Assembly: GCA_021792095.1 (NCBI GenBank) | Contig: JAJYVH010000001.1 | Coordinates: forward strand, 62,001 to 126,000 | Direction: 5' to 3' | DNA length: 64,000 nt | Origin: Microcaldota archaeon | GTDB taxonomy: Archaea > Micrarchaeota > Micrarchaeia > Micrarchaeales > CABMGC01 | Shown here: piece by piece, positions 14,937 to 44,391 of the stretch | Layout: every line of letters starts with the position of its first letter | How positions within the stretch are numbered: position 1 is the first letter of the stretch | The notes under the pieces: generated by a model | Told to the model about the DNA's origin: nothing | Database searches by the model: none | Seen by the model: the letters and a program-made list of their open reading frames with translations, nothing else | Position numbers and translations under genes: made by a program

Positions 14937-15743
14937 ATGCCCAAAAAATTGTACCTATTGAAAATAGGCGGCAGCATAATAACAGACACTACCAAGCCCA
15001 GCGCAGCAAAGAGGGCGGAGATAAGGCGGATAGTGAGGGAAATAAAGGCGGCCAAGGACGAGGGCGATTTCAATCTGATAATAGGCCATGGCAGCGGCTC
15101 GTTCGCGCACAGGCCAGCGAAAAAGTACAGGACGAATGAAGGCATAGTTAACAAGGATAGCAGGAAAGGCGCGACCATAACACACATGGTAGCCAAGGAA
15201 CTCAACGACATATTCGTAGAGGAAGCGCTGAAGAGTGGACTTGATGTATTCCCGTTTTCGCCATCGAGCTTCGGCGTGCACAACGGCGAACACTGGGCTT
15301 CGGGCACAACCGAACCGATTAAGGAAGCTATGAACAGGAGCATGATTCCCGTCACCTATGGCGACGTAGTGATGAATTCTAAGAACGGCTTCTCCATAGC
15401 CTCCACAGAGCGGGTATTCGAGTTCATCGCATCCAGGCTGAAACCTGACAAAGTCATACTTGCTACTGACGTTGATGGGGTCTTCGACAAGGACCCGAGA
15501 AAGTGCAAAGATGCAAAGCTCGTGAGGAACATAGACAGAAACAACATAACCGCTGCGCTTAAATGGGCAAAGGGCTCGCACAAGGTAGACGTTACAGGTG
15601 GAATGCACTCGAAGCTCTCGTTCCTCTACGGCATCGCGAAGATGTCTGGCGGAGAGGGCGTTATACTCAACGGCAAGAAGGACGGCAGGATAAGGGATGC
15701 ACTCCTTGGAAGGTACGGCACAGCAACAGTCGTGAGGCCGTAA
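14937..15743 (+). CDS. ipk: Isopentenyl phosphate kinase
   Basis: It phosphorylates isopentenyl phosphate to IPP with ATP, the last step of the archaeal variants of the mevalonate pathway. It is an amino acid kinase fold protein: LYLLKIGGSIITD binds phosphate; GHGSGSFAHRPAKKY carries the conserved catalytic His; PVTYGDVV, ATDVDGVFDKDP and DVTGGMHSKL complete the nucleotide site. I choose ATG 14937 because a TATA box (TTTAAATA, 14901-14908) places the RNA start just before it. 268 aa is normal. A second, divergent IPK lies at 21171. Confidence 0.9.
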   Translation: MPKKLYLLKIGGSIITDTTKPSAAKRAEIRRIVREIKAAKDEGDFNLIIGHGSGSFAHRPAKKYRTNEGIVNKDSRKGATITHMVAKELNDIFVEEALKSGLDVFPFSPSSFGVHNGEHWASGTTEPIKEAMNRSMIPVTYGDVVMNSKNGFSIASTERVFEFIASRLKPDKVILATDVDGVFDKDPRKCKDAKLVRNIDRNNITAALKWAKGSHKVDVTGGMHSKLSFLYGIAKMSGGEGVILNGKKDGRIRDALLGRYGTATVVRP

Positions 15744-15774: not shown

Positions 15775-15933
15775 ATGACAAAAACAAAACAACAGAATAA
15801 TGAAGCCGGAGCCCAGAAAGTGGTGGCAAACGTTTCAGATAAGAAAGAATTGGATTCAGCGGTAAAGAACGCGACAAGGCCAAAAAGCACTAAGCAGACG
15901 CTCTACATGGGTAGTTGGGACGAGTTCGATTGA
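15775..15933 (+). CDS. Possible small protein, 52 aa
   Basis: An ATG with a plausible site (TAGGTGA) begins a frame coding MTKTKQQNNEAGAQKVVANV, a Lys/Ser-rich middle and the end KQTLYMGSWDEFD. It follows ipk by 31 nt on the same strand. The hydrophilic, charged sequence with a conserved-looking aromatic/acidic tail suggests a real small protein, but I know no family. Its end overlaps the tail of the decayed gene on the other strand. Confidence 0.4.
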   Translation: MTKTKQQNNEAGAQKVVANVSDKKELDSAVKNATRPKSTKQTLYMGSWDEFD

Positions 15934-15967
15934 AAAAGTGTGCATGCACGCAGACTATCAACAGTTC

Positions 15968-16607
15968 TCACTTGCCGTAGGCATCGATTATGCGATTCAG
16001 CAACATCCTTAGCCATTGGAGTGAAGCTGCCCGGTGCCTCTTGAATCTCTGCCTTTAGGTTTCCTAGCGAAACCCATCTGTAACCCATGCCTGTGGCTAC
16101 AGCGTGGGCGATTTGGGAAATTTTGTGCAGCGCGTCATCCTCCCACAGATCTACACCATACGCAGTCAGTATCGCCCCTATGGTTGCCACGGTGACGGCA
16201 GCACTGCTTCCAAGCCCAGATTTGGACAGCTTGGATTTGCCATCGCCCAGCCTATAAGCGAAAGCTGCATCATTTTCAGTTCTAATCTTCAGGCCAGAGA
16301 TCTTGTTCCCAATGCCGCGCACATACATTAATGCGATTTGGGTCGCTGTTTTGACTAATCGAAGTTCGTTTGTTGTACTTGCATTAATAGCTCCTGTTTC
16401 GATATCCACAGCGCCGGTCAATCTTTGGCCGAACTGAGGAACATCAATTATTACAGAATCATCTTGCGCAAGTCTGATACTTACATTAACACCAGCATCC
16501 ACAGTTGTGACGTACCCTATGTTTGGTTTTTCAAGTACTGAATATCCGCCCAGCCAGAGTATTTTACCGTGTGCAGTTGTTCGCACTTCGCCCATAGCAT
16601 CACACAT
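15968..16607 (-). pseudogene. Truncated phosphomevalonate kinase joined to an IDI C-terminal fragment
   Basis: The first 170 codons are a GHMP-type phosphomevalonate kinase: HGKILWLGGYSVLEKPN, then SKSGLGSSAAVTVATIGAIL and KISQIAHAVATG. Exactly where relatives continue with KVGSGFD, the sequence switches to MGYRWVSLGNLKAEIQE, the C-terminus of type 1 isopentenyl-diphosphate isomerase. A one-base frameshift near 16014-16018 follows: the original IDI frame reads WLRMLLNRIIDAYGK and stops at 15968, while the shifted frame runs on to 15903. The kinase has lost its whole C-terminal half, so it should be inactive. The start is ATG 16607 or 16595, 10 nt after the decarboxylase gene. Confidence 0.8.
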
Positions 16608-16617
16608 CTTAGGAATT

Positions 16618-17676
16618 TCAATTTCTAAACTTAGGCTTAAAGAGTTTTGCGTCTATCAGATGCGCTTTGTTTTCTTCCAGCAGACGCGGTCCGCCTCCTA
16701 CGTGCGATTCTAAGACACTCCGAACGCCTCTTATATTACGCAGAGCATTGTAGACAATTTGTTTATTTTTCTCGAGTGCAATAATATGCGCATTTGGGCC
16801 TGCATCAAAAGTGTACGCTGCAACAGTGTGCTTTTCCTTCGCATTCAATTCGTGAACCGCATATATTACATCACGCGATATATCGTTCATATAGAATATA
16901 GGAGGCCACGTGTCCAGCATTATAGCATGCATGTCATTACTATCACGCATTGTTATTTCTGCAAAGGTCTCGAAATCCCTATTTTTTATCGCCGTTTCTA
17001 GCCGGCCTGCCGCCTCCTCGGCGTGCCTGATTCTAGAATTGTACAGAACGCTTGTCTCAACACTTTGCTTCATGCCAGACCTCGAAGACACCTTCTTTTT
17101 TGAAAGGGACACTATCGCAATCACATCTATCAATTCGGGCCAGTGATTCTCGTCCCTGATTTGAACTGCAAATGAATCAGACCCGTCTGCCTTTACTCCC
17201 CTTCGCCATTTGACAAACCCGCCGAGTGTGCTCCTACAAGCGCTCCCGCTCACCTGGCGCGCAAAAATAGACAGCTCTTGGGAAGACAGTGCGATACCCA
17301 GTGCTTTAGAAACTGCAAATGCAAGCGTTGCTGCACCCGATGCGCTCGAAGCTATGCCTGCAGAAGTAGGAAATGAATTTTTAGATACAATTAGTGCGTG
17401 CGCATTACTACCGGCTAATTCCCGAAGCCTGCCAAGAATCGCAAAACGTTCCGCTGCTTCTGGGTCTTCCAAGTCTTGCTCGACGCCATTTATAAATATC
17501 GCATCTTTTCTCAGTTTTCTCGAAAACACTACGCTTGTTTTCGTGTAAAGAGGATTTGACAAAGTCATGCTTATAGATGAATTGTATGGCAGTATGAGTT
17601 TGTTGTCCCTCTTGCCCCAATACTTGATAAGTGCTATGTTAGGGGCTCCAACCGCTGTGTATACCCTATCTTCCAT
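16618..17676 (-). CDS. mvaD: Diphosphomevalonate decarboxylase
   Basis: GHMP-family enzyme that decarboxylates (di)phosphomevalonate. Motifs: APNIALIKYWGKRDNKLILP, SFPTSAGIASSASGAATLAF (phosphate loop), SGSACRSTLGGFVKW, GMKQSVETS, PPIFYMND and AYTFDAGPNA with the catalytic Asp. These match classical eukaryotic/bacterial-type enzymes closely, more than haloarchaeal phosphomevalonate decarboxylases. The TATA box at 17711-17718 is about 38 nt before ATG 17676. With the next kinase gene broken, its natural substrate here is uncertain: mevalonate diphosphate if another kinase exists, mevalonate phosphate otherwise. Confidence 0.9.
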   Translation of the reverse strand: MEDRVYTAVGAPNIALIKYWGKRDNKLILPYNSSISMTLSNPLYTKTSVVFSRKLRKDAIFINGVEQDLEDPEAAERFAILGRLRELAGSNAHALIVSKNSFPTSAGIASSASGAATLAFAVSKALGIALSSQELSIFARQVSGSACRSTLGGFVKWRRGVKADGSDSFAVQIRDENHWPELIDVIAIVSLSKKKVSSRSGMKQSVETSVLYNSRIRHAEEAAGRLETAIKNRDFETFAEITMRDSNDMHAIMLDTWPPIFYMNDISRDVIYAVHELNAKEKHTVAAYTFDAGPNAHIIALEKNKQIVYNALRNIRGVRSVLESHVGGGPRLLEENKAHLIDAKLFKPKFRN

Positions 17677-17733
17677 AAGTACAACTCTGTTGAATTTGAG
17701 ACGCTAGAGCATATATTCTTTTGGCACCATCGC

Positions 17734-18783
17734 CTAACGCCTAAGTATGCGCTCGAGCTGCCCCTTAACCCCCATGTCAGTGGTCTCTATCCTTTCTACA
17801 TTGAAACCTACACGGCGCATCGCGTCTGCTATCTGTAGGTTATTATAAGGCTCGCAGTTTACTATGCCCATTCCGCCTCCACCTCCGCCAGAGAGCTTTG
17901 CGCCGTATGCGCCGTTCTTGTTTGCAATTCTGGTCATCTGGTCTAATTTTTCGCTCGACACTCCAAGCTCGACGAGCAGGCGTTGATTTGCGTTCATAAG
18001 TTTGCCGAGTTTCATTGCGTTCCCTGTTCCTAGTGCCTCGACTTCATCGTCTATTATCGAGTCTATGGAGCTAAATATTTCTCGAGCCCTTTCCGGATAT
18101 GTTTTGGCCTTTACAGACACCACAAAAACAGTATCGGAAGTTGGCACTTTCGGGCCTACGTTTACCGCCAAAAGATTAGGAGGCTGGGAAACCTGCATCC
18201 TAGAGTAGCCTGATTTCGGCGACCCGACAACGTAGCCGCCATAATACACTGGTGGTACGTCTACAGCCCCGGCGTTCGGATTCTTGTGTATTATCCTGTC
18301 TACGTCCCTTATCACATCCACGATATCGGCGTCTTTGAGCATTACATTTGCTTGCGCCAGAACGGCTCCTACGAATGATGCGCCTATCGATGTGCTGCTT
18401 CCCCAGCCCTCCCGAACCGGAACCTTGGATGTCGAGTGAAAAGTGGCGCCAGTTACAGGGACATCGTATTCAAGATACAGCCTGGAGGCCACATACGCGA
18501 ATGCCAGATGCGATCTTGAGAGGCGGTTGTTCGTTGATATAAACGAATTCACGTCGGCCTTCTCCTCCCACGACCTGTTGATGCTTTTCAGATCTTCTTT
18601 CGTGAATTTCTGGGTGTGCTCTGGCTTTAGGTCGTCCAGGGATAGGGTAACTTGGTCAGAACCATCACTTTCTACCCATGTATCCGCAAGCTTATACACA
18701 GCAGCGGATATGCACTTGGTTCCATGGACTACTGAATGCTCGCCTGCAATCTTTATGTTGGCTGGGGCCGATATATTAAGCAT
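17734..18783 (-). CDS. mvk: Mevalonate kinase
   Basis: It phosphorylates mevalonate at O5. GHMP motifs: SAPANIKIAGEHSVVHGTK (motif 1), KVPVREGWGSSTSIGASFVG (ATP loop; the usual GLGSSA is GWGSSTS), and AKLSGGGGGGMGIV (motif 3). The longer frame starts at 18819, but the palindromic TATA box CTTTATAAAG (18804-18813) is centred 25 nt before ATG 18783, so I take that ATG as a leaderless start, giving the usual N-terminus MLNISAPANIKIAGEHS. It is followed by the decarboxylase, which has its own promoter in the 57-nt gap. Confidence 0.9.
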   Translation of the reverse strand: MLNISAPANIKIAGEHSVVHGTKCISAAVYKLADTWVESDGSDQVTLSLDDLKPEHTQKFTKEDLKSINRSWEEKADVNSFISTNNRLSRSHLAFAYVASRLYLEYDVPVTGATFHSTSKVPVREGWGSSTSIGASFVGAVLAQANVMLKDADIVDVIRDVDRIIHKNPNAGAVDVPPVYYGGYVVGSPKSGYSRMQVSQPPNLLAVNVGPKVPTSDTVFVVSVKAKTYPERAREIFSSIDSIIDDEVEALGTGNAMKLGKLMNANQRLLVELGVSSEKLDQMTRIANKNGAYGAKLSGGGGGGMGIVNCEPYNNLQIADAMRRVGFNVERIETTDMGVKGQLERILRR

Positions 18784-18859
18784 GATCTGCCTTTCTTCGG
18801 CTGCTTTATAAAGATTCACTTATAGGCTTTGGTCTCTGCCAGCAGCACAAGTCCGCACG

Positions 18860-19384
18860 CTACCGGGCACTCCTTACCCTATCAATTATTAGCCTAAGCC
18901 ATGGGGTAAACATGGTAGGGTTCTCCCTTATCTCGTTAGACAATTCGTCAAGCGAAACCCATCTGTAACCCATGGCCTCTTCGCTGTTGGGCTTGGGCTC
19001 GCCGTCGTAGCTGCCGAACAGCACATGGTCGTACTCGTGCTCCGTCAGCCCATTGCCAACATCCGCCTTGTACGTGAACGCGAACACCTCGTGCATCGGG
19101 CAGTCGAAGCCCATCTCCTCCTGCAGCCTCCTGTGCGCGGCCGCCTCTATGCTCTCGCCGGGATACGGGTGGCTGCAGCAGGTGTTCGACCATAGTCCCT
19201 TGCTGTGATATTTGGTCATCGCGCGCTGCTGCAGCATCGTCTCGCCCTTGCTGTTGAACACGAATATGGAAATGGCTCTGTGGAGCTTGGCGCCGTTCTG
19301 GTGCGCCTTCAGCTTGTCTTCGAGGCCGATCTCCCTGTCGTTCTCGTCAACCAGTATTACTTTCTGCGTATCATTGCTGTCCAT
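18860..19384 (-). CDS. idi: Isopentenyl-diphosphate delta-isomerase, type 1
   Basis: It interconverts IPP and DMAPP; a Nudix-fold metal enzyme. Motifs: LHRAISIFVFNSKGETMLQQRA, SNTCCSHPYPGES (catalytic Cys), AAHRRLQEEMGFDCP (Nudix-like helix) and EHEYDHVLFG with metal-binding Glu. The start at ATG 19384 gives the usual VILVDENDREIG N-terminus; the ATG at 19408 is an alternative. A TATA box (AATATATTAG) is at 19421-19430. Its last 35 codons are homologous to the fragment in the broken kinase gene, including one stretch of 24 identical bases. Confidence 0.92.
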   Translation of the reverse strand: MDSNDTQKVILVDENDREIGLEDKLKAHQNGAKLHRAISIFVFNSKGETMLQQRAMTKYHSKGLWSNTCCSHPYPGESIEAAAHRRLQEEMGFDCPMHEVFAFTYKADVGNGLTEHEYDHVLFGSYDGEPKPNSEEAMGYRWVSLDELSNEIRENPTMFTPWLRLIIDRVRSAR

Positions 19385-19546
19385 GTTCCTAACGCCAATA
19401 AGAACCATTTTACACGAAGCAATATATTAGTACGTACTCTTTACACAATTGACGAAGCTTAAACTATAGCTTAAATAGGCAGAAAACTAATTTGCTAGCA
19501 GAGGCTGGCGATCAGTTTGTATGTGAGCGCTGGTTTTTGTGATTAA

Positions 19547-20623
19547 ATGAACAACGGAGAGTTTGAGGATTACCTCAGGAGCAAAGCTGCCGCAATAAAT
19601 TCAAAATTGGCAGAATACCTTGTAAAGGAGTCATCCGACAGGTACGTAGGCCGACTGCTCGGAAGAGCAGGCCACAAGTATCATCATGAATCTCTAAGCA
19701 AGGCTATTTTCGAACCGGCGTGGTACCTGATAGGTCTCGGGGGCAAACGGTGGAGGTCTACGCTTATGGCGTTGACTATCGAAGCGCTTGGGAAGGACTC
19801 GGACTATTATGCAGAGTTTTGCATGGTTCCAGAGATAATACACAATGCTACGCTGATACATGATGATATAGAGGATGGCTCGGTTACACGTAGAGCCGCA
19901 CCAGCAGTCCATATAAAGTACGGGATAGATATAGCAACAAACCTAGGGGATTTCATGTTTTATTTCCCTGTGGTGGCACTTCTCGACAGCAAAAAACTTT
20001 CAATAAAAACTAAAAATAAATTCCTTTCTATATACGTAAGAGAGATGCTACGCGCTACCACAGGACAAGCGACAGATCTTGCATGGCACAATTTTTTAGT
20101 CAACCCGGCCAGTATAGAAGAGGAGAACTACCTTCAGATGGTCTACGATAAAACTGGTGTACTGGCAAGAATGGCGTGCAAGCTCGGCGGGGTGCTTTGC
20201 GAGACTGATGACGCTACTATAGAGGCGCTTGGAAACTTCGGGGCCACAATAGGGGTTGCGTTCCAGATACAAGACGACCTGCTAAACCTTTATCCCAGCA
20301 GGGTTTCTGAAACTAAAGGAGGAGTGGGAGAAGATATCACAGAAGGTAAAATTTCCCTTCCTGTGATATATGCGTTGCAGCACTCAAAACAAAAAGACAG
20401 GAAGAAACTGCTTGAGATACTTAAAATGCACACAACGAACCAGAAACTCAAGGGAGAGGCAATAGGAATAATCGATGCATCAGGAGCAAAAACATACTGT
20501 GAGTATGTAGAACACAAAATAGTAAAAGAGGCATGGGCTCGGGTCAACAAGAAATTGCCTAAGTCTGAAGCTAAGGATAGACTAGAGATGATGGCTCACT
20601 TCCTTATAGACCGTTCGAGATAG
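19547..20623 (+). CDS. Polyprenyl (geranylgeranyl-type) diphosphate synthase
   Basis: A trans-prenyltransferase that condenses IPP onto allylic diphosphates. First Asp-rich motif: NATLIHDDIEDGSVTRRAAP; second: GVAFQIQDDLLNLYPSR; the conserved Gly-Gly-Lys-Arg site appears as GLGGKRWRSTL. The Ala five residues before the first DD is small, which in this family allows products longer than C15. It leads an operon with a Nudix gene (17 nt later) and a second IPK. Base composition is more AT-rich than in the second synthase at 22931, so the two have different histories. Confidence 0.88.
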   Translation: MNNGEFEDYLRSKAAAINSKLAEYLVKESSDRYVGRLLGRAGHKYHHESLSKAIFEPAWYLIGLGGKRWRSTLMALTIEALGKDSDYYAEFCMVPEIIHNATLIHDDIEDGSVTRRAAPAVHIKYGIDIATNLGDFMFYFPVVALLDSKKLSIKTKNKFLSIYVREMLRATTGQATDLAWHNFLVNPASIEEENYLQMVYDKTGVLARMACKLGGVLCETDDATIEALGNFGATIGVAFQIQDDLLNLYPSRVSETKGGVGEDITEGKISLPVIYALQHSKQKDRKKLLEILKMHTTNQKLKGEAIGIIDASGAKTYCEYVEHKIVKEAWARVNKKLPKSEAKDRLEMMAHFLIDRSR

Positions 20624-20640
20624 GTATTTGAGGTGTTAAA

Positions 20641-21171
20641 GTGGCAGATGTAGTAGGAATATTTACTGTAATAGACGGTGGCGCTCTGTATTTTCGGCGA
20701 CGTAGCGATGATTGGCTTCCGGACAAGTGGAACATTGTGTCTGGACACATAGAACCTGGCGAAACGCCAACAGAGGCAGCAAAAAGGGAGTTTAAAGAAG
20801 AGGTAGGAATCGACGCTGAAGAAACCAAATTTATTCACATATCTGATTTCGAAGACGCAGTGATTACACCGAAAGGCAGAGTTCCGCTACGCGTTCACCT
20901 CTACACGTACATAAACGAGTCTCTAAAACTAGACAAGATTACTGTATGTGAAGATGAATATGTTGCCAAACGCGTTATACCTCTAAACGGGATAGAACTT
21001 GTTGTGGCAAGCAGAGACGAAAGCGGAAAAGATAGCCCCTTTACTTCTACTGACATAAGAGTAATCAAAGAGCAGATGAACAACATACGAGCGCTCGTTG
21101 TACAGACCGAGCACGAGAGGAGTGCGGAGCCGGTACAAGGTAGTGCACTCCTAAAAACCAAGGTGCCCTAG
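20641..21171 (+). CDS. Nudix hydrolase in the prenyl synthase-IPK operon
   Basis: A Nudix box is complete: GHIEPGETPTEAAKREFKEEVGI fits G-x5-E-x7-REUxEExGU. The N-terminus (VVGIFTVIDGGALYFRRRSDD) is like MutT/ADP-ribose pyrophosphatase-type proteins. It starts at GTG 20641. The stop overlaps the GTG start of the second IPK by one base, so translation is coupled. In plants, some Nudix enzymes hydrolyse IPP or GPP to monophosphates that IPK re-phosphorylates; a similar pairing is possible here but unproven. Confidence 0.82.
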   Translation: MADVVGIFTVIDGGALYFRRRSDDWLPDKWNIVSGHIEPGETPTEAAKREFKEEVGIDAEETKFIHISDFEDAVITPKGRVPLRVHLYTYINESLKLDKITVCEDEYVAKRVIPLNGIELVVASRDESGKDSPFTSTDIRVIKEQMNNIRALVVQTEHERSAEPVQGSALLKTKVP

Positions 21172-21896
21172 TGATTGTTTTGAAAGTGGGAGGTTCTGCT
21201 CTTACAGATAAGAAAACAGGCAGGTCGTTTGTCGATGAAGTAACGACTAGGGTATCGCGTGAAATATCTAAATCTGCTGAACTCGTAATAGTGACCGGCG
21301 CAGGATACGAAGGGCACAGATTTGCAAAACGCCACAAGCTAAGGTCTCTAGATAGAAACCAGAGGAACTGGGCACGCCTTAGATACATTGTTGGGGAGAA
21401 TTCGAAAAAACTTGTAAAAAAATTAATAGACAGGAGACTCGCCCCTATGGAAATCTCAACCATCGGATTATTTATCACATCCGGTGGTCACATCAAGAAG
21501 TTTAACAGCAGATTCATCTATGATTACGTAAAAATAGGATTCATACCCGTATTACATGCGGACGCACCGATTGATGTGAAGAAAGGCGTATCTGTGCTAT
21601 CTGGCGATGCTATAGCCACAGAGATCGCACATTCGCTAAGGGCGAAACTACTGATATATGGCAGTGACGTGGAGGGCATATATGATAAAAACGGCAACCT
21701 GCTAAAAAAAGTAGACCAGAACAACTTAGAAAGCGTGCACTTCTGGAAAGTTAATGACGTTAGTGGTGGGCTCATGAACAAGATAAAAGAGACAAGAAAG
21801 TTACACGGCACCAAGGTAGTAATGATAAACCTGCGGAAAGATGGCAGGCTCCGCGATGTGATGCTCGGAAAACGCGTCGGCACAATTATAGGCTGA
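21171..21896 (+). CDS. Second isopentenyl phosphate kinase-like protein
   Basis: 241 residues of the amino acid kinase fold: IVLKVGGSALTDKKTGRSF, GAGYEGHRFAKRHKL (the equivalent of the IPK GGGSFGHxxAKKY motif, catalytic His kept), PVLHADAPID, YGSDVEGIYDKNG, and DVSGGLMNKIKETRKL. It is clearly of the IPK family but divergent from the IPK at 14937 and shorter. The substrate might be IP, DMAP or a longer prenyl phosphate; known archaeal family members include geraniol/geranylgeraniol phosphate kinases. It is coupled to the Nudix gene. Confidence 0.82.
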   Translation: MIVLKVGGSALTDKKTGRSFVDEVTTRVSREISKSAELVIVTGAGYEGHRFAKRHKLRSLDRNQRNWARLRYIVGENSKKLVKKLIDRRLAPMEISTIGLFITSGGHIKKFNSRFIYDYVKIGFIPVLHADAPIDVKKGVSVLSGDAIATEIAHSLRAKLLIYGSDVEGIYDKNGNLLKKVDQNNLESVHFWKVNDVSGGLMNKIKETRKLHGTKVVMINLRKDGRLRDVMLGKRVGTIIG

Positions 21897-21915
21897 AGAA
21901 CAACTACAATATACG

Positions 21916-22707
21916 TCATCGTTTCCTAATCTTGCGTCTCCTGTAGTCTCCTAGATTGAATTTCCTTAAAATCAAACTCTGAACCTCTGCAGCTATGTCT
22001 TCCCTTGATCTAGTTGCATCTATCAGGTCTATCCTTCCGAGTTCTCTGATTACCAAAAATTTGTAGAGTTCTGCTGTTATTGATGAGTACAGTATATCTC
22101 CATTATTGTATACTCTCTGCTCTCTCCGAACTTCCCTAACTTTAATGTCCTTTATAGGCAAATCTAGCATTATGGTAAGGTCTGGCCAACGTATAAGAGG
22201 CTTCAACGAAATAAAAATTTGATATAATATATTTATTTCGCGCACACACTTCTTCATGCATTTTTGTGCGTATTCGCCCACAAGAACTTCGAATTCAACA
22301 TGCGTGCGCAAGCTCTCCGCACTTATCAGCTTTGCCAAACCCTGTGGGCTTGACGTTTCAGCGCCTAATGTTTTGGCTATCTGAATCAGCACAACTCTAG
22401 TCGCTGAATGGGTAAAGGCAGCATCTACGTACCTGCCCATTATCACTATGTGGGGGACACCATCAAACTCAGCAACTAAGTCTGCATAACTCTGCTTAAG
22501 CAGGGCCATAAATACAAGCAAGTCTACACCTGGATCCACTTTTGGCAGGAAAGCAGACCACATCTGCTCCCTAGGGTTCTTTGATATGGCCCCAAGAGCC
22601 GCCTCGAGCATTTTATGCGTAAACATCTTATGAAGCACAACATTGTAGTGCTTCCAAAGATAAGCACCTAGAGCGTCAGCTTGTGTTGTCTTCCCAGAAT
22701 TGCCCAT
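21916..22707 (-). CDS. Thymidylate kinase-like P-loop kinase with unclear start
   Basis: The Walker A reads GMGNSGKTTQA and the fold resembles dTMP kinase: IMGRYVDAAFTHSA, PDLTIMLDLPI and a basic lid KVREVRREQRVY. At about 263 aa it is longer than usual, and its role as a deoxynucleotide kinase is not certain. The first ATG (22707) lies inside the P-loop, so the true N-terminus must be upstream (LVINFEGMGNSGK). No ATG, GTG or TTG exists there before an in-frame stop; a TATA-like TTAAATA near 22780 would start RNA at an ATT codon at 22758. Confidence 0.65.
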   Translation of the reverse strand: MGNSGKTTQADALGAYLWKHYNVVLHKMFTHKMLEAALGAISKNPREQMWSAFLPKVDPGVDLLVFMALLKQSYADLVAEFDGVPHIVIMGRYVDAAFTHSATRVVLIQIAKTLGAETSSPQGLAKLISAESLRTHVEFEVLVGEYAQKCMKKCVREINILYQIFISLKPLIRWPDLTIMLDLPIKDIKVREVRREQRVYNNGDILYSSITAELYKFLVIRELGRIDLIDATRSREDIAAEVQSLILRKFNLGDYRRRKIRKR

Positions 22708-33688: not shown

Positions 33689-34732
33689 GTGGGCTGCATG
33701 GAAGCGGAAAGGTTAACACACACACACACACACACACAACCAAGCGCCAAAAATAGATTAGCCGGAGCAAGCGGCCCCGATGCAGCTCCTTCCAGAAAAC
33801 TGCGCTCCCAATCTGCCATGGAGTACCTGATGACCTACGGCTGGGCCATACTGATAATAGCAGTTGTCCTGGGCGCCCTCTTCAGTTTGGGGGTCTTCAA
33901 CGGCGCGAACTTCGCCCCCAAGGCGCCGCCGGGCGCATGCCAGGTCTTCAGGCCCAACGGACCGGGCAGCACGAGCTTCATCAATCTCGAGGGTGTGTGC
34001 AGCGGCGAGCTGCCGGAGTATGCTTTTTCATTCCCGAATACTACCACACAGGGCGACGTGGTCCCGGAATCCCAATCGCTGGATTCGGCGTGGGACGGCG
34101 GCTCGTGGACCATAGCCGCATGGTTCAAGGAGACTACTGTGCTCGGCCCTGGAGAAGCTAGGTTTCTGATAGATGAAACAGCAGGATGCGTTAGCGGCTT
34201 GGTGACCGGAGAGTCCTCGGCCACACAGTACAGCATATATACAGCACAGTGGTACAGCTCAGGCGGTTTGTGCATCAATGATGGAGTTGTTGCAGCAGGA
34301 TTCGGGGGCATACCCTACAACACATGGGTGTTCATTGTGAGCACGTTCCACTACATACCGCCGTCGGGAGGCTGGGTAGCAGCATGCGTAGACGGGGCGT
34401 GCGACAACTCATCATGGACCGCCAACGACCCCACTGATTATGCAGCGTATGGTTATGCGTTCCAGATACAGGACAACAACTGCTGCGGAGGCTTCCTGTA
34501 TGGAGGTGAACTTGCGGACGTACAGCTCTACAACACAAGTCTCTCCGCATCCACAATGAACGCGATGTACTATGAAGGCATAGGGGGAGCCCCTATACAG
34601 CTGCAGAACCTTGTGGGCTGGTGGCCGCTGAACGGCAACGGCCAGGATTACTCAGGAAACAACAACAACGGCGCAGTGAACTCCGGAGACAGCTTCGACG
34701 GTTCCTGGATGAGCGGCTATGCCACGCCGTAG
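33689..34732 (+). CDS. Pilin-type-signal surface protein with LamG-like domain and CA-repeat N-terminus
   Basis: The predicted RNA start (TATTTATG at 33658-33665) is close to GTG 33689; ATG 33698 is the next option. Codons 10-17 are a CA microsatellite giving Thr-His repeats. Then comes the class III signal region KLRSQSAMEYLMTYGWAILI with a hydrophobic helix. The ectodomain has SFINLEGVCSGELPEYAFSF and a concanavalin/LamG-like lectin fold (SWTIAAWFKETTVLG, NTWVFIVSTFHYIPP, GELADVQLYNTSLSASTMNA, LVGWWPLNGNGQDYSGNNNN). It is a likely exported, pilus-like or surface adhesin subunit. The gene at 63695 shares the same first 70 residues after the signal. Confidence 0.8.
   Translation: MGCMEAERLTHTHTHTQPSAKNRLAGASGPDAAPSRKLRSQSAMEYLMTYGWAILIIAVVLGALFSLGVFNGANFAPKAPPGACQVFRPNGPGSTSFINLEGVCSGELPEYAFSFPNTTTQGDVVPESQSLDSAWDGGSWTIAAWFKETTVLGPGEARFLIDETAGCVSGLVTGESSATQYSIYTAQWYSSGGLCINDGVVAAGFGGIPYNTWVFIVSTFHYIPPSGGWVAACVDGACDNSSWTANDPTDYAAYGYAFQIQDNNCCGGFLYGGELADVQLYNTSLSASTMNAMYYEGIGGAPIQLQNLVGWWPLNGNGQDYSGNNNNGAVNSGDSFDGSWMSGYATP
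33716..33738 (+). repeat. (AC)n dinucleotide microsatellite
   Basis: About 11.5 AC units in a row lie a few codons after the likely start codons of the LamG surface protein. Gain or loss of one unit would shift the frame before the signal peptide. Confidence 0.95.
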
Positions 34733-42428: not shown

Positions 42429-43244
42429 TGCTCGATGATGCTACCTTAGATGAACTGGAACGCATCAAGGCTCAGCTAAACGCACTGCTACCCAAGCTTA
42501 CCAAGTGGAAGGTGGAAGAGCTCCAGAAAGGCATATCAGCGTTCTACATGAAGAAATGGAAGCGCAACAAGATAAGGAAGTATGGCTCTATCTCTAAGGC
42601 CTTCACGCAGGACGAGCTTGACAGGTTCTTCAGCGTTATAAAGGACGACCGCTGGCTGTTGCTCTTTGAATATCAGACCTATCTGGCTCTGAGGATAAGA
42701 GAGGCTTGCGTGCTAAACCTAAAGGACTTTGACTTCACGATTAGGGAGCTTAGAGTGCATACGGAGAAGGCCCACACGCTTGACACGCTAAAGATTCCAG
42801 AATTCCTTTATGAGCAAACAATGGCTTACATAGAGAGGCATCAGAAAGAGATAGAAGAGCACGCTGGCTACCTGTTCTATCCCGATAAGATGGGGCATAG
42901 CAGTATGCCTTACGTCAATCTTAACTACGCACGCACGGTATTCCGCTACTACGCCTCTATGGCTGGGCTCGTGGAGGTCTATGACACGAGCGACGAGAGC
43001 GTGCCGAATAGGGCCAAGAGAAAGCTACATAGGCTTACCACGCACTCGTTAAGGCATTACGCCATTTACTCGCTTTAATCGTGCTGTTCATGGCGACATA
43101 ATCTTAACGCAACGCTACGCAAGGCATAGAGAGATTTCGAGCACTCAGGTTTATATCCACACTTCTAAGGAAGAGCTTTATGATGCTATCGATACTGCTT
43201 TCTCAAAAAATGAGATTCTAGAGGGTAGATTATATGAAAAGTAA
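42428..43244 (+). pseudogene. Tyrosine recombinase (integrase) with a frame break at codon CTT-TAA
   Basis: The N-terminal SAM-like core-binding domain (RIKAQLNALLPKLTKWKVEE, AFTQDELDRFFSVIKDDRWL) is followed by the catalytic domain: YLALRIREACVLNLKDFDF (Arg I), then THSLRHYAIYS (H-x-x-R). There the frame stops at TAA 43076-43078. Shifted by +1, the reading continues NRAVHGDIILTQRYARHREI, SSTQVYIHTSKEELYDAIDT (His and nucleophile Tyr) to 43244. All catalytic residues exist if both parts are joined. A Shine-Dalgarno GGAGG (42415-42419) supports ATG 42428. Either a mutation or a programmed +1 frameshift separates the parts. Confidence 0.8.
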
Positions 43245-44391
43245 AATTTCACCCTCAACACAAGTACTAAATTATTTAGTATATAAAGAGGGGTATATGG
43301 GATGGACAAAACCAGAGTATAGCCTCACAAAAGTTGATAAAGCAGGAGATTTTTTAACTGCAGTGGATACTGGAAAAATTAAATTGGGCGATGCTAACCC
43401 TGAAAAATTGAAAAACGCCATTGATGTTCTTGCTAATTGGAGATCAGCACACAGTTTTCCATTAAACACTTTTCAAGTGCACTTAAGAGCATTGGCTAAA
43501 GAAATTGATCCAAGTGCAATAATTGGTCAACGATTAAAAAGAGTGCCATCTATTCTTTATAAACTGAGTAGAGAGCAAACCCATACGATGAAACTTTCAC
43601 AGATGCAAGACATCGGAGGGTGTAGGGCCATAGTTTCAGATATAGAAAAGGTCAGAAAATTAGAAGAAGCATACAATAAAAGTCAGATAAAACACAAACC
43701 AAAACCAAAGTTAAAAAAAGATTATATATCAAGTCCCAAAAAAGATGGATATAGAAGTATACATTTTGTTTATAAGTATTTTAGCGATAAAAATAATGTA
43801 TATAATAAAGGCATACTAATAGAAATCCAGATTAGATCCAAATTACAACATGCTTGGGCAACAGCGGTAGAAACAGTAGGCACATTTACAAAACATGCAT
43901 ATAAATCAGATAAAGGGGATACTGAGTGGCTTAATTTCTTCAAACTAGCAAGTACTGCCTTTGCTGTTATTGAAAATACACCTCCAGTGCCAGATACCCC
44001 AACAGATATCAAAGAGCTATGTAAAGAATTACGAAACAGCATATCAAAGTTAGATGTTTTTCAAAAAATGAGAGCATTTGCAAGCGCATTAAAAGCGGTC
44101 CAAGAATCCCCAGCCCAGCATTTCTTTCTATTAGAACTTGATATAGAAAAGGAGCAACTGAAAATTACTAGTTTCCCTAAATCACAAGAAAAAAATGCTA
44201 CAGAAGCATATAATAGAGCAGAAGATGAAATTAAACAAATGGAAGGTGGAAAAATTAAGAAAGATGTAGTCCTTGTAGCTGCTGACTCAATAGAAGAATT
44301 AAAAAGAGCATACCCAAATTATTTTGCAGATACTGAGGCTTTTATTAATTATTTAAACAATTTTTTGGAAGACCATAAAGAAGCGGGATAA
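43234..44391 (+). CDS. RelA/SpoT-domain nucleotide synthetase-like protein (possible toxSAS)
   Basis: 385 residues. The synthetase core has RVPSILYKLSREQ, MQDIGGCRAIVSDIEKVRKL, YISSPKKDGYRSIHFVYKYF, and ILIEIQIRSKLQHAWATAVE with the catalytic Glu of the (p)ppGpp synthetase fold (PF04607). There is no hydrolase domain. The C-terminal 130 residues (HFFLLELDIEKEQLKITSFP, VLVAADSIEELKRAYPNYFA) are a separate domain. Such single-domain synthetases are rare in archaea; in bacteria some are growth-stopping toxins that modify tRNA or nucleotides, often near phage genes. It is strongly AT-rich and its ATG overlaps the integrase 3' end. Confidence 0.82.
   Translation: MKSKISPSTQVLNYLVYKEGYMGWTKPEYSLTKVDKAGDFLTAVDTGKIKLGDANPEKLKNAIDVLANWRSAHSFPLNTFQVHLRALAKEIDPSAIIGQRLKRVPSILYKLSREQTHTMKLSQMQDIGGCRAIVSDIEKVRKLEEAYNKSQIKHKPKPKLKKDYISSPKKDGYRSIHFVYKYFSDKNNVYNKGILIEIQIRSKLQHAWATAVETVGTFTKHAYKSDKGDTEWLNFFKLASTAFAVIENTPPVPDTPTDIKELCKELRNSISKLDVFQKMRAFASALKAVQESPAQHFFLLELDIEKEQLKITSFPKSQEKNATEAYNRAEDEIKQMEGGKIKKDVVLVAADSIEELKRAYPNYFADTEAFINYLNNFLEDHKEAG

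Follow-up and report, generated by a model that had tools for sequence, protein, structure and literature searches.

The window, by which we mean the whole 64,000-nucleotide stretch of DNA analysed here, contains an open reading frame of 234 amino acids (15903-16607, minus strand) in which the start of a phosphomevalonate kinase (PMK) gene is fused to the 3′ end of idi, the gene for type 1 IPP isomerase. On one side of this fusion lie a small ORF (15776-15934, plus strand) and the isopentenyl phosphate kinase gene IPK1 (14937-15743, plus strand; NF040647, 214 bits), and on the other, all on the minus strand, a diphosphomevalonate decarboxylase (MDD) gene of the classical SSRxGM type (16618-17676; TIGR01240, 324 bits), an MVK gene (17734-18783) and an intact idi. 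The MVK is of a type found in the same genus, being 53% identical to that of G005, 62% to a fragment in G001 and about 33% to others. The genome assembly consists of one contig of 771,545 bp with 0.15% contamination; it is 93% complete by marker genes and no terminal overlap that would indicate circularity was found, so that the absence of a gene here falls short of proof. The closest relative in the comparison, G004, belongs to the same genus (NusG 95%, S5 97% and IPK1 84% identical) and has an assembly that is only 71% complete.

Truncation of the phosphomevalonate kinase gene

Residues 9-173 of the fused frame match TIGR01220 with 43.5 bits over positions 2-159 of 358 in the profile. The searches with Pfam and NCBIfam, the identity to relatives and a genome-wide profile search all define the kinase part as codons 1-173 (16090-16607, minus strand) of a gene whose C-terminal half is absent. 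Compared with intact PMKs of 370-392 amino acids, this half is 49-60% identical to its closest relatives and down to 40% identical to more distant ones, and it breaks off at AHAVATG, where the relatives continue with ATGKVGSGFD. Profiles and relatives thus confirm the original prediction that the kinase is cut right before KVGSGFD and joined to a frameshifted idi 3′ end. A full-length enzyme has N- and C-terminal domains that include KVGSGFD and a C-terminal PGAGG loop, and the PMK half falls short of this; because the motif and the loop are missing, the truncated enzyme should be inactive.

The part that remains shows no sign of long decay, which we could rule out since no conserved residue has been lost and the branch is not long: of the invariant residues in the N-terminal half, the 12 that could be tested are all kept, and the end branch of the PMK half (0.34) is no longer than those of its intact kin. 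Taken together, the retained residues and the ordinary branch length suggest that the cut is probably recent. It was also foreseen that the pathway might lack this kinase, and the search of the genome bears this out. No second PMK and no separate PMK C-terminal half were found in the 771,545-bp assembly with a profile built from 11 intact PMKs, which matched there only over its positions 4-169 of 385, and a copy elsewhere in the genome was likewise not detected with TIGR01219 or with the N-terminal half.

The two idi ends and the 24-bp repeat

Directly after the PMK half follow 24 in-frame codons of an idi 3′ end (MGYRWVSLGNLKAEIQEAPGSFTP). Near 16016 a single additional base throws the reading out of frame, and the last 15 codons (WLRMLLNRIIDAYGK-stop) are found in the next frame, running to 15968. 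The remnant therefore amounts to 39 codons, not the 35 first proposed, although its identification as an idi 3′ end stands. It begins with one copy of a 24-bp direct repeat (16066-16089, minus strand), which abuts the PMK junction, and its remainder (15968-16065, minus strand), which ends in a stop codon of its own, is part of a tail 76% identical in nucleotides (72/95) to that of the G004 idi. The other copy of the repeat lies within the intact idi (18951-18974, minus strand). The 24 identical bases and the position of this second copy had been correctly predicted, but the first copy had been placed one base off, at 16065-16088.

The gene order in G004 is NusG-uL11-IPK1-small ORF-idi, with PMK, MDD and MVK absent in between, and its IPK1 is syntenic with that of the window. 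From IPK1 the two sequences align collinearly across the small ORF, which is thus present in both, and across the idi 3′ end, as far as the junction with PMK. Because of this collinearity the remnant is best read as the 3′ terminus of the native idi, which has kept its position beside its native neighbour IPK1, and the view of it as a diverged second copy of idi is to be rejected. Upstream of about codon 10 of idi the window and G004 diverge, so that the locus must have undergone more than one rearrangement.

The intact idi passes the curated cut-off for type 1 IPP isomerases (PRK03759, 175.6 bits; TIGR02150, 136.4 bits) and is, by composition and alignment, a chimera of a GC-rich, G004-like front and a foreign low-GC tail, with the changeover at the 24-bp block. 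Its 5′ part (18975-19408, minus strand) is 82% identical in nucleotides (322/392) and 87% in amino acids to the idi of G004, to which it is sister with an SH-aLRT support of 97, and the tail (18860-18950, minus strand) shares only 53% of nucleotides (48/90) with G004. GC3 falls from 0.82-0.85 upstream of the block to 0.40-0.43 in the tail, the largest fall among 17 idi genes, the other 16 reaching 0.20 at most. MVK, MDD and the PMK half have a GC3 of 0.42-0.53, the native genes NusG and uL11 one of about 0.77, and the ORFs of the window a median of 0.66. The block is one of few exact repeats of at least 20 bases in the window; its two copies agree at 24/24 positions and each matches G004 at only 16/24, indicating that it was duplicated or homogenised after the two lineages split. 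In idi genes generally the tail is less conserved than the remainder, so that tail identity by itself is a weak argument, and it is collinearity, GC3 and the 24-bp block that jointly carry the case.

Possible histories of the locus

We infer the direction and the mechanism of the event from these features. The PMK truncation is real, and most likely it arose by recombination into idi, an event of a known kind. The account that we consider probable is that a segment of 2,861 bp (16090-18950, minus strand), running from the idi tail through MVK and MDD to the PMK half, recombined into idi, rebuilding that gene and truncating PMK, rather than that DNA was deleted between neighbours; this segment is absent between idi and IPK1 in G004 and has the 24-bp repeats at its bounds. 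The donor segment would have carried the 3′ end of another idi, then MVK, MDD and PMK, and would have recombined with the native idi at the conserved GYRWVSL codons. On the idi side the join would have been seamless, so that the gene acquired a new tail and its frame stayed intact; on the other side the segment, which had broken within PMK, would have joined the native idi where the same 24-bp stretch begins, with almost no microhomology, the joint between PMK and idi showing an overlap of 1-2 bases. The native idi 3′ end would thereby have been stranded as scrap beside IPK1 and the C-terminal half of PMK lost. Candidate routes are an integration that was homologous on one side and illegitimate on the other, or the single-crossover integration of a small circle. 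No donor was found, a decarboxylase scan of named genomes giving Micrarchaeota as the nearest named kin, and the viral contigs contained neither the PMK-idi junction nor kin of the MVK.

Some elements insert at the 3′ end of a gene, which they reconstitute in doing so. The present locus resembles them in that the target is rebuilt with a new tail, the native tail is displaced to the far end and an identical core repeat stands at both ends, but the 2.86-kb segment carries nothing besides the idi tail, MVK, MDD and the PMK half and has no integrase, transposase or other mobility gene. Another parallel is homology-facilitated illegitimate recombination, of which we know of no report in this lineage. 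That process likewise yields a seamless join in a homologous gene, almost no homology at the other end and the addition of foreign genes (PMC3240628), and the chimeric idi does show, on one side, an exchange within a homologous gene that left no seam. The present locus differs from it in that both ends meet within 24 bp in one gene and in the want of a donor.

The original prediction instead invoked a deletion that joined two neighbouring genes of an older mevalonate cluster. In its fullest form this would start from an ancestral order idi_B-PMK-MDD-MVK-idi_A, from which the stretch running from PMK codon 173 to halfway through idi_B disappeared in the lineage of the window, and G004 lost the whole cluster through recombination between the two idi genes. 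Deletion between direct repeats is common, and an ancestral neighbourhood of idi and PMK with two idi copies is possible. In G001, an outgroup within the genus, an MVK of the window type is reduced to its C-terminal half and lies directly beside uL11 (L239:6356-6928), with no PMK or MDD over threshold in that genome; this suggests that MVK was once at the locus, and that the cluster may be old there and was lost in G004, which counts against an insertion. It also counts against an insertion that none of the relatives examined has an idi that immediately precedes MVK in the same orientation, and that the G004 assembly is incomplete. Yet the deletion history requires two independent deletions as well as gene conversion to account for identical 24-bp copies that are each 8/24 off G004, it leaves the GC3 break within the intact idi unexplained, and PMK adjoins idi in no relative examined. 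Indeed, in none of the seven relatives having a located PMK and a type 1 idi above the cut-off were the two on the same contig, contrary to the gene order that had been expected. With IPK1, the small ORF and idi continuous in G004 and the intact idi chimeric, we regard this history as unlikely. Still far less probable is an artefact of assembly, in which the 24-bp repeat caused sequence from another molecule or from a mixed population to be built into the contig. In an assembly graph such a repeat does make a chromosome with the insert equivalent to an insert-free chromosome plus a circle; on the other hand, 24 bp is shorter than the k-mers or reads usual for such assemblies, the genome is a single 771-kb contig with 0.15% contamination, and the joint between PMK and idi has hardly any overlap (1-2 bases), so that it must exist in the reads. 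If recombination into idi is indeed the correct account, the near-empty site of the relative G004 reveals a pathway gene amputated by the very recombination that imported its neighbours.

Mevalonate pathway content and decarboxylase type

The genome contains MVK, one decarboxylase, two IPKs over the cut-off, IDI and two prenyl synthases. HMG-CoA reductase was not found in it; within the genus, G002, G003 and G005 do have the gene. Hence, of the classical mevalonate pathway, MVK and MDD are present and PMK and HMG-CoA reductase absent, and with PMK truncated and no second copy in the genome, the classical route, judged from its gene content, cannot run in the genome as assembled. The archaea-type route via AcnX (phosphomevalonate dehydratase, PF04412) was ruled out, as PF04412 is absent from the genome, and Thermoplasma-type decarboxylases (M3K/MBD) were discounted, as the genome has only one decarboxylase homologue. 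Since no HMG-CoA reductase was found, we infer that the organism probably takes its precursors from a host. The Micrarchaeota symbiont Ca. Micrarchaeum harzensis has late mevalonate genes and no HMG-CoA reductase, and is likewise inferred to obtain lipid precursors from its host (PMC8975820); its enzymes are, however, of the Thermoplasma type, in contrast to the classical type with a cut PMK plus an IPK seen here.

It seems that the type of decarboxylase and its partner kinase are linked throughout the order. In a survey of 164 genomes both PMK and IPK were present in 11, PMK only in 42, IPK only in 69 and neither in 42 (Fisher p = 8e-7), and among the genomes with a decarboxylase the corresponding numbers were 9, 41, 42 and 3 (p = 2e-14), although these p-values overstate the evidence because the genomes are related to one another. 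By neighbour within 4 kb, 45 of 47 PMK-linked decarboxylases have the GM form of the motif and 30 of 33 IPK-linked ones the GH form. The window decarboxylase, with SSRSGM, is one of two IPK-linked GM cases, and it belongs to the PMK-linked clade as the sister of the PMK-linked enzyme of G003 (tree support 100/98). By motif and tree position the window therefore breaks the order-wide rule, having a decarboxylase of the PMK type with an IPK and without PMK. The motif is a lead to the substrate, but to take it as proof would be unjustified: particular Tyr, Lys and Ser residues are given for enzymes that use MVAPP (PMC3857490), and the IPK-linked GH-type decarboxylases of the order (e.g., L102:1474-2532) share these residues, keeping the known diphosphate-binding Tyr, Lys and Ser.

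In view of IPK1, the alternative mevalonate pathway of PMD and IPK (PMC3857490) has to be considered, which the window resembles in that an IPK is present and PMK is absent beside the decarboxylase gene. The decarboxylase itself is not of the IPK-linked type on which that pathway would depend; judged by position in the motifs, its residues are those given for enzymes that use MVAPP (PMC3857490, Table 4), and it falls in their classical clade and lacks the known MPD residues. It is possible, if doubtful, that the loss of PMK is tolerated through a bypass in which mevalonate 5-phosphate is the substrate of the decarboxylase and IPK1 carries out the last step to IPP, a reading that fits either history of the locus. 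The adjacent IPK1, conserved in G004, would agree with this, as would the intact frames of MVK and MDD and the rarity with which PMK and IPK coexist in the order. The same may be said of G109, where the genes for a GH-type decarboxylase, IPK and MVK are followed by a PMK start of 90 residues (L238:9811-10110); on its sequence, this genome, which has an IPK, lost PMK independently. Against a bypass stand the SSRxGM motif of the window decarboxylase and its PMK-linked sister, its residues of MVAPP-using enzymes, and the absence of HMG-CoA reductase, owing to which mevalonate would have to be imported.

A stronger version, that the genome is midway in a switch between forms of the mevalonate pathway, in which a PMK-partnered decarboxylase that has just lost its kinase now works, or starts to work, on mevalonate 5-phosphate with IPK1, seems to us improbable. 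If it were true, phosphomevalonate decarboxylase would have arisen a separate time in the IPK-linked GH type of the order, with the known diphosphate-binding residues kept. In G007, of the same genus, a decarboxylase with an unusual STSEAM motif (L117:8564-9601), placed weakly in the GM clade, is flanked by IPK and idi, again at the uL11 locus, and is possibly a later stage of the same switch. In any case the window provides a natural example of a classical decarboxylase that remains in a genome with an IPK and without PMK. Since the GM or GH motif goes with PMK or IPK as partner kinase across the order, the substrate that these decarboxylases use can be tested directly.

Several further observations concern the window and the relatives. 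A second run of low GC3 (0.42-0.47; 19547-22707), between idi and a high-GC3 prenyl synthase, comprises a prenyl synthase, a Nudix gene, IPK2 and a kinase-like gene, the Nudix gene and IPK2 overlapping by one base at 21171. The ORF at 43234-44388 has a GC3 of 0.22, far under the window median, and is possibly foreign. Exact direct repeats of at least 20 bases, about 30 kb apart and in register at two or more places, begin at 33830 and 63767 and suggest a duplicated gene. Finally, the genomes G073 (C7) and G105 (C29; L293) each contain two full-length PMK genes within 3 kb.
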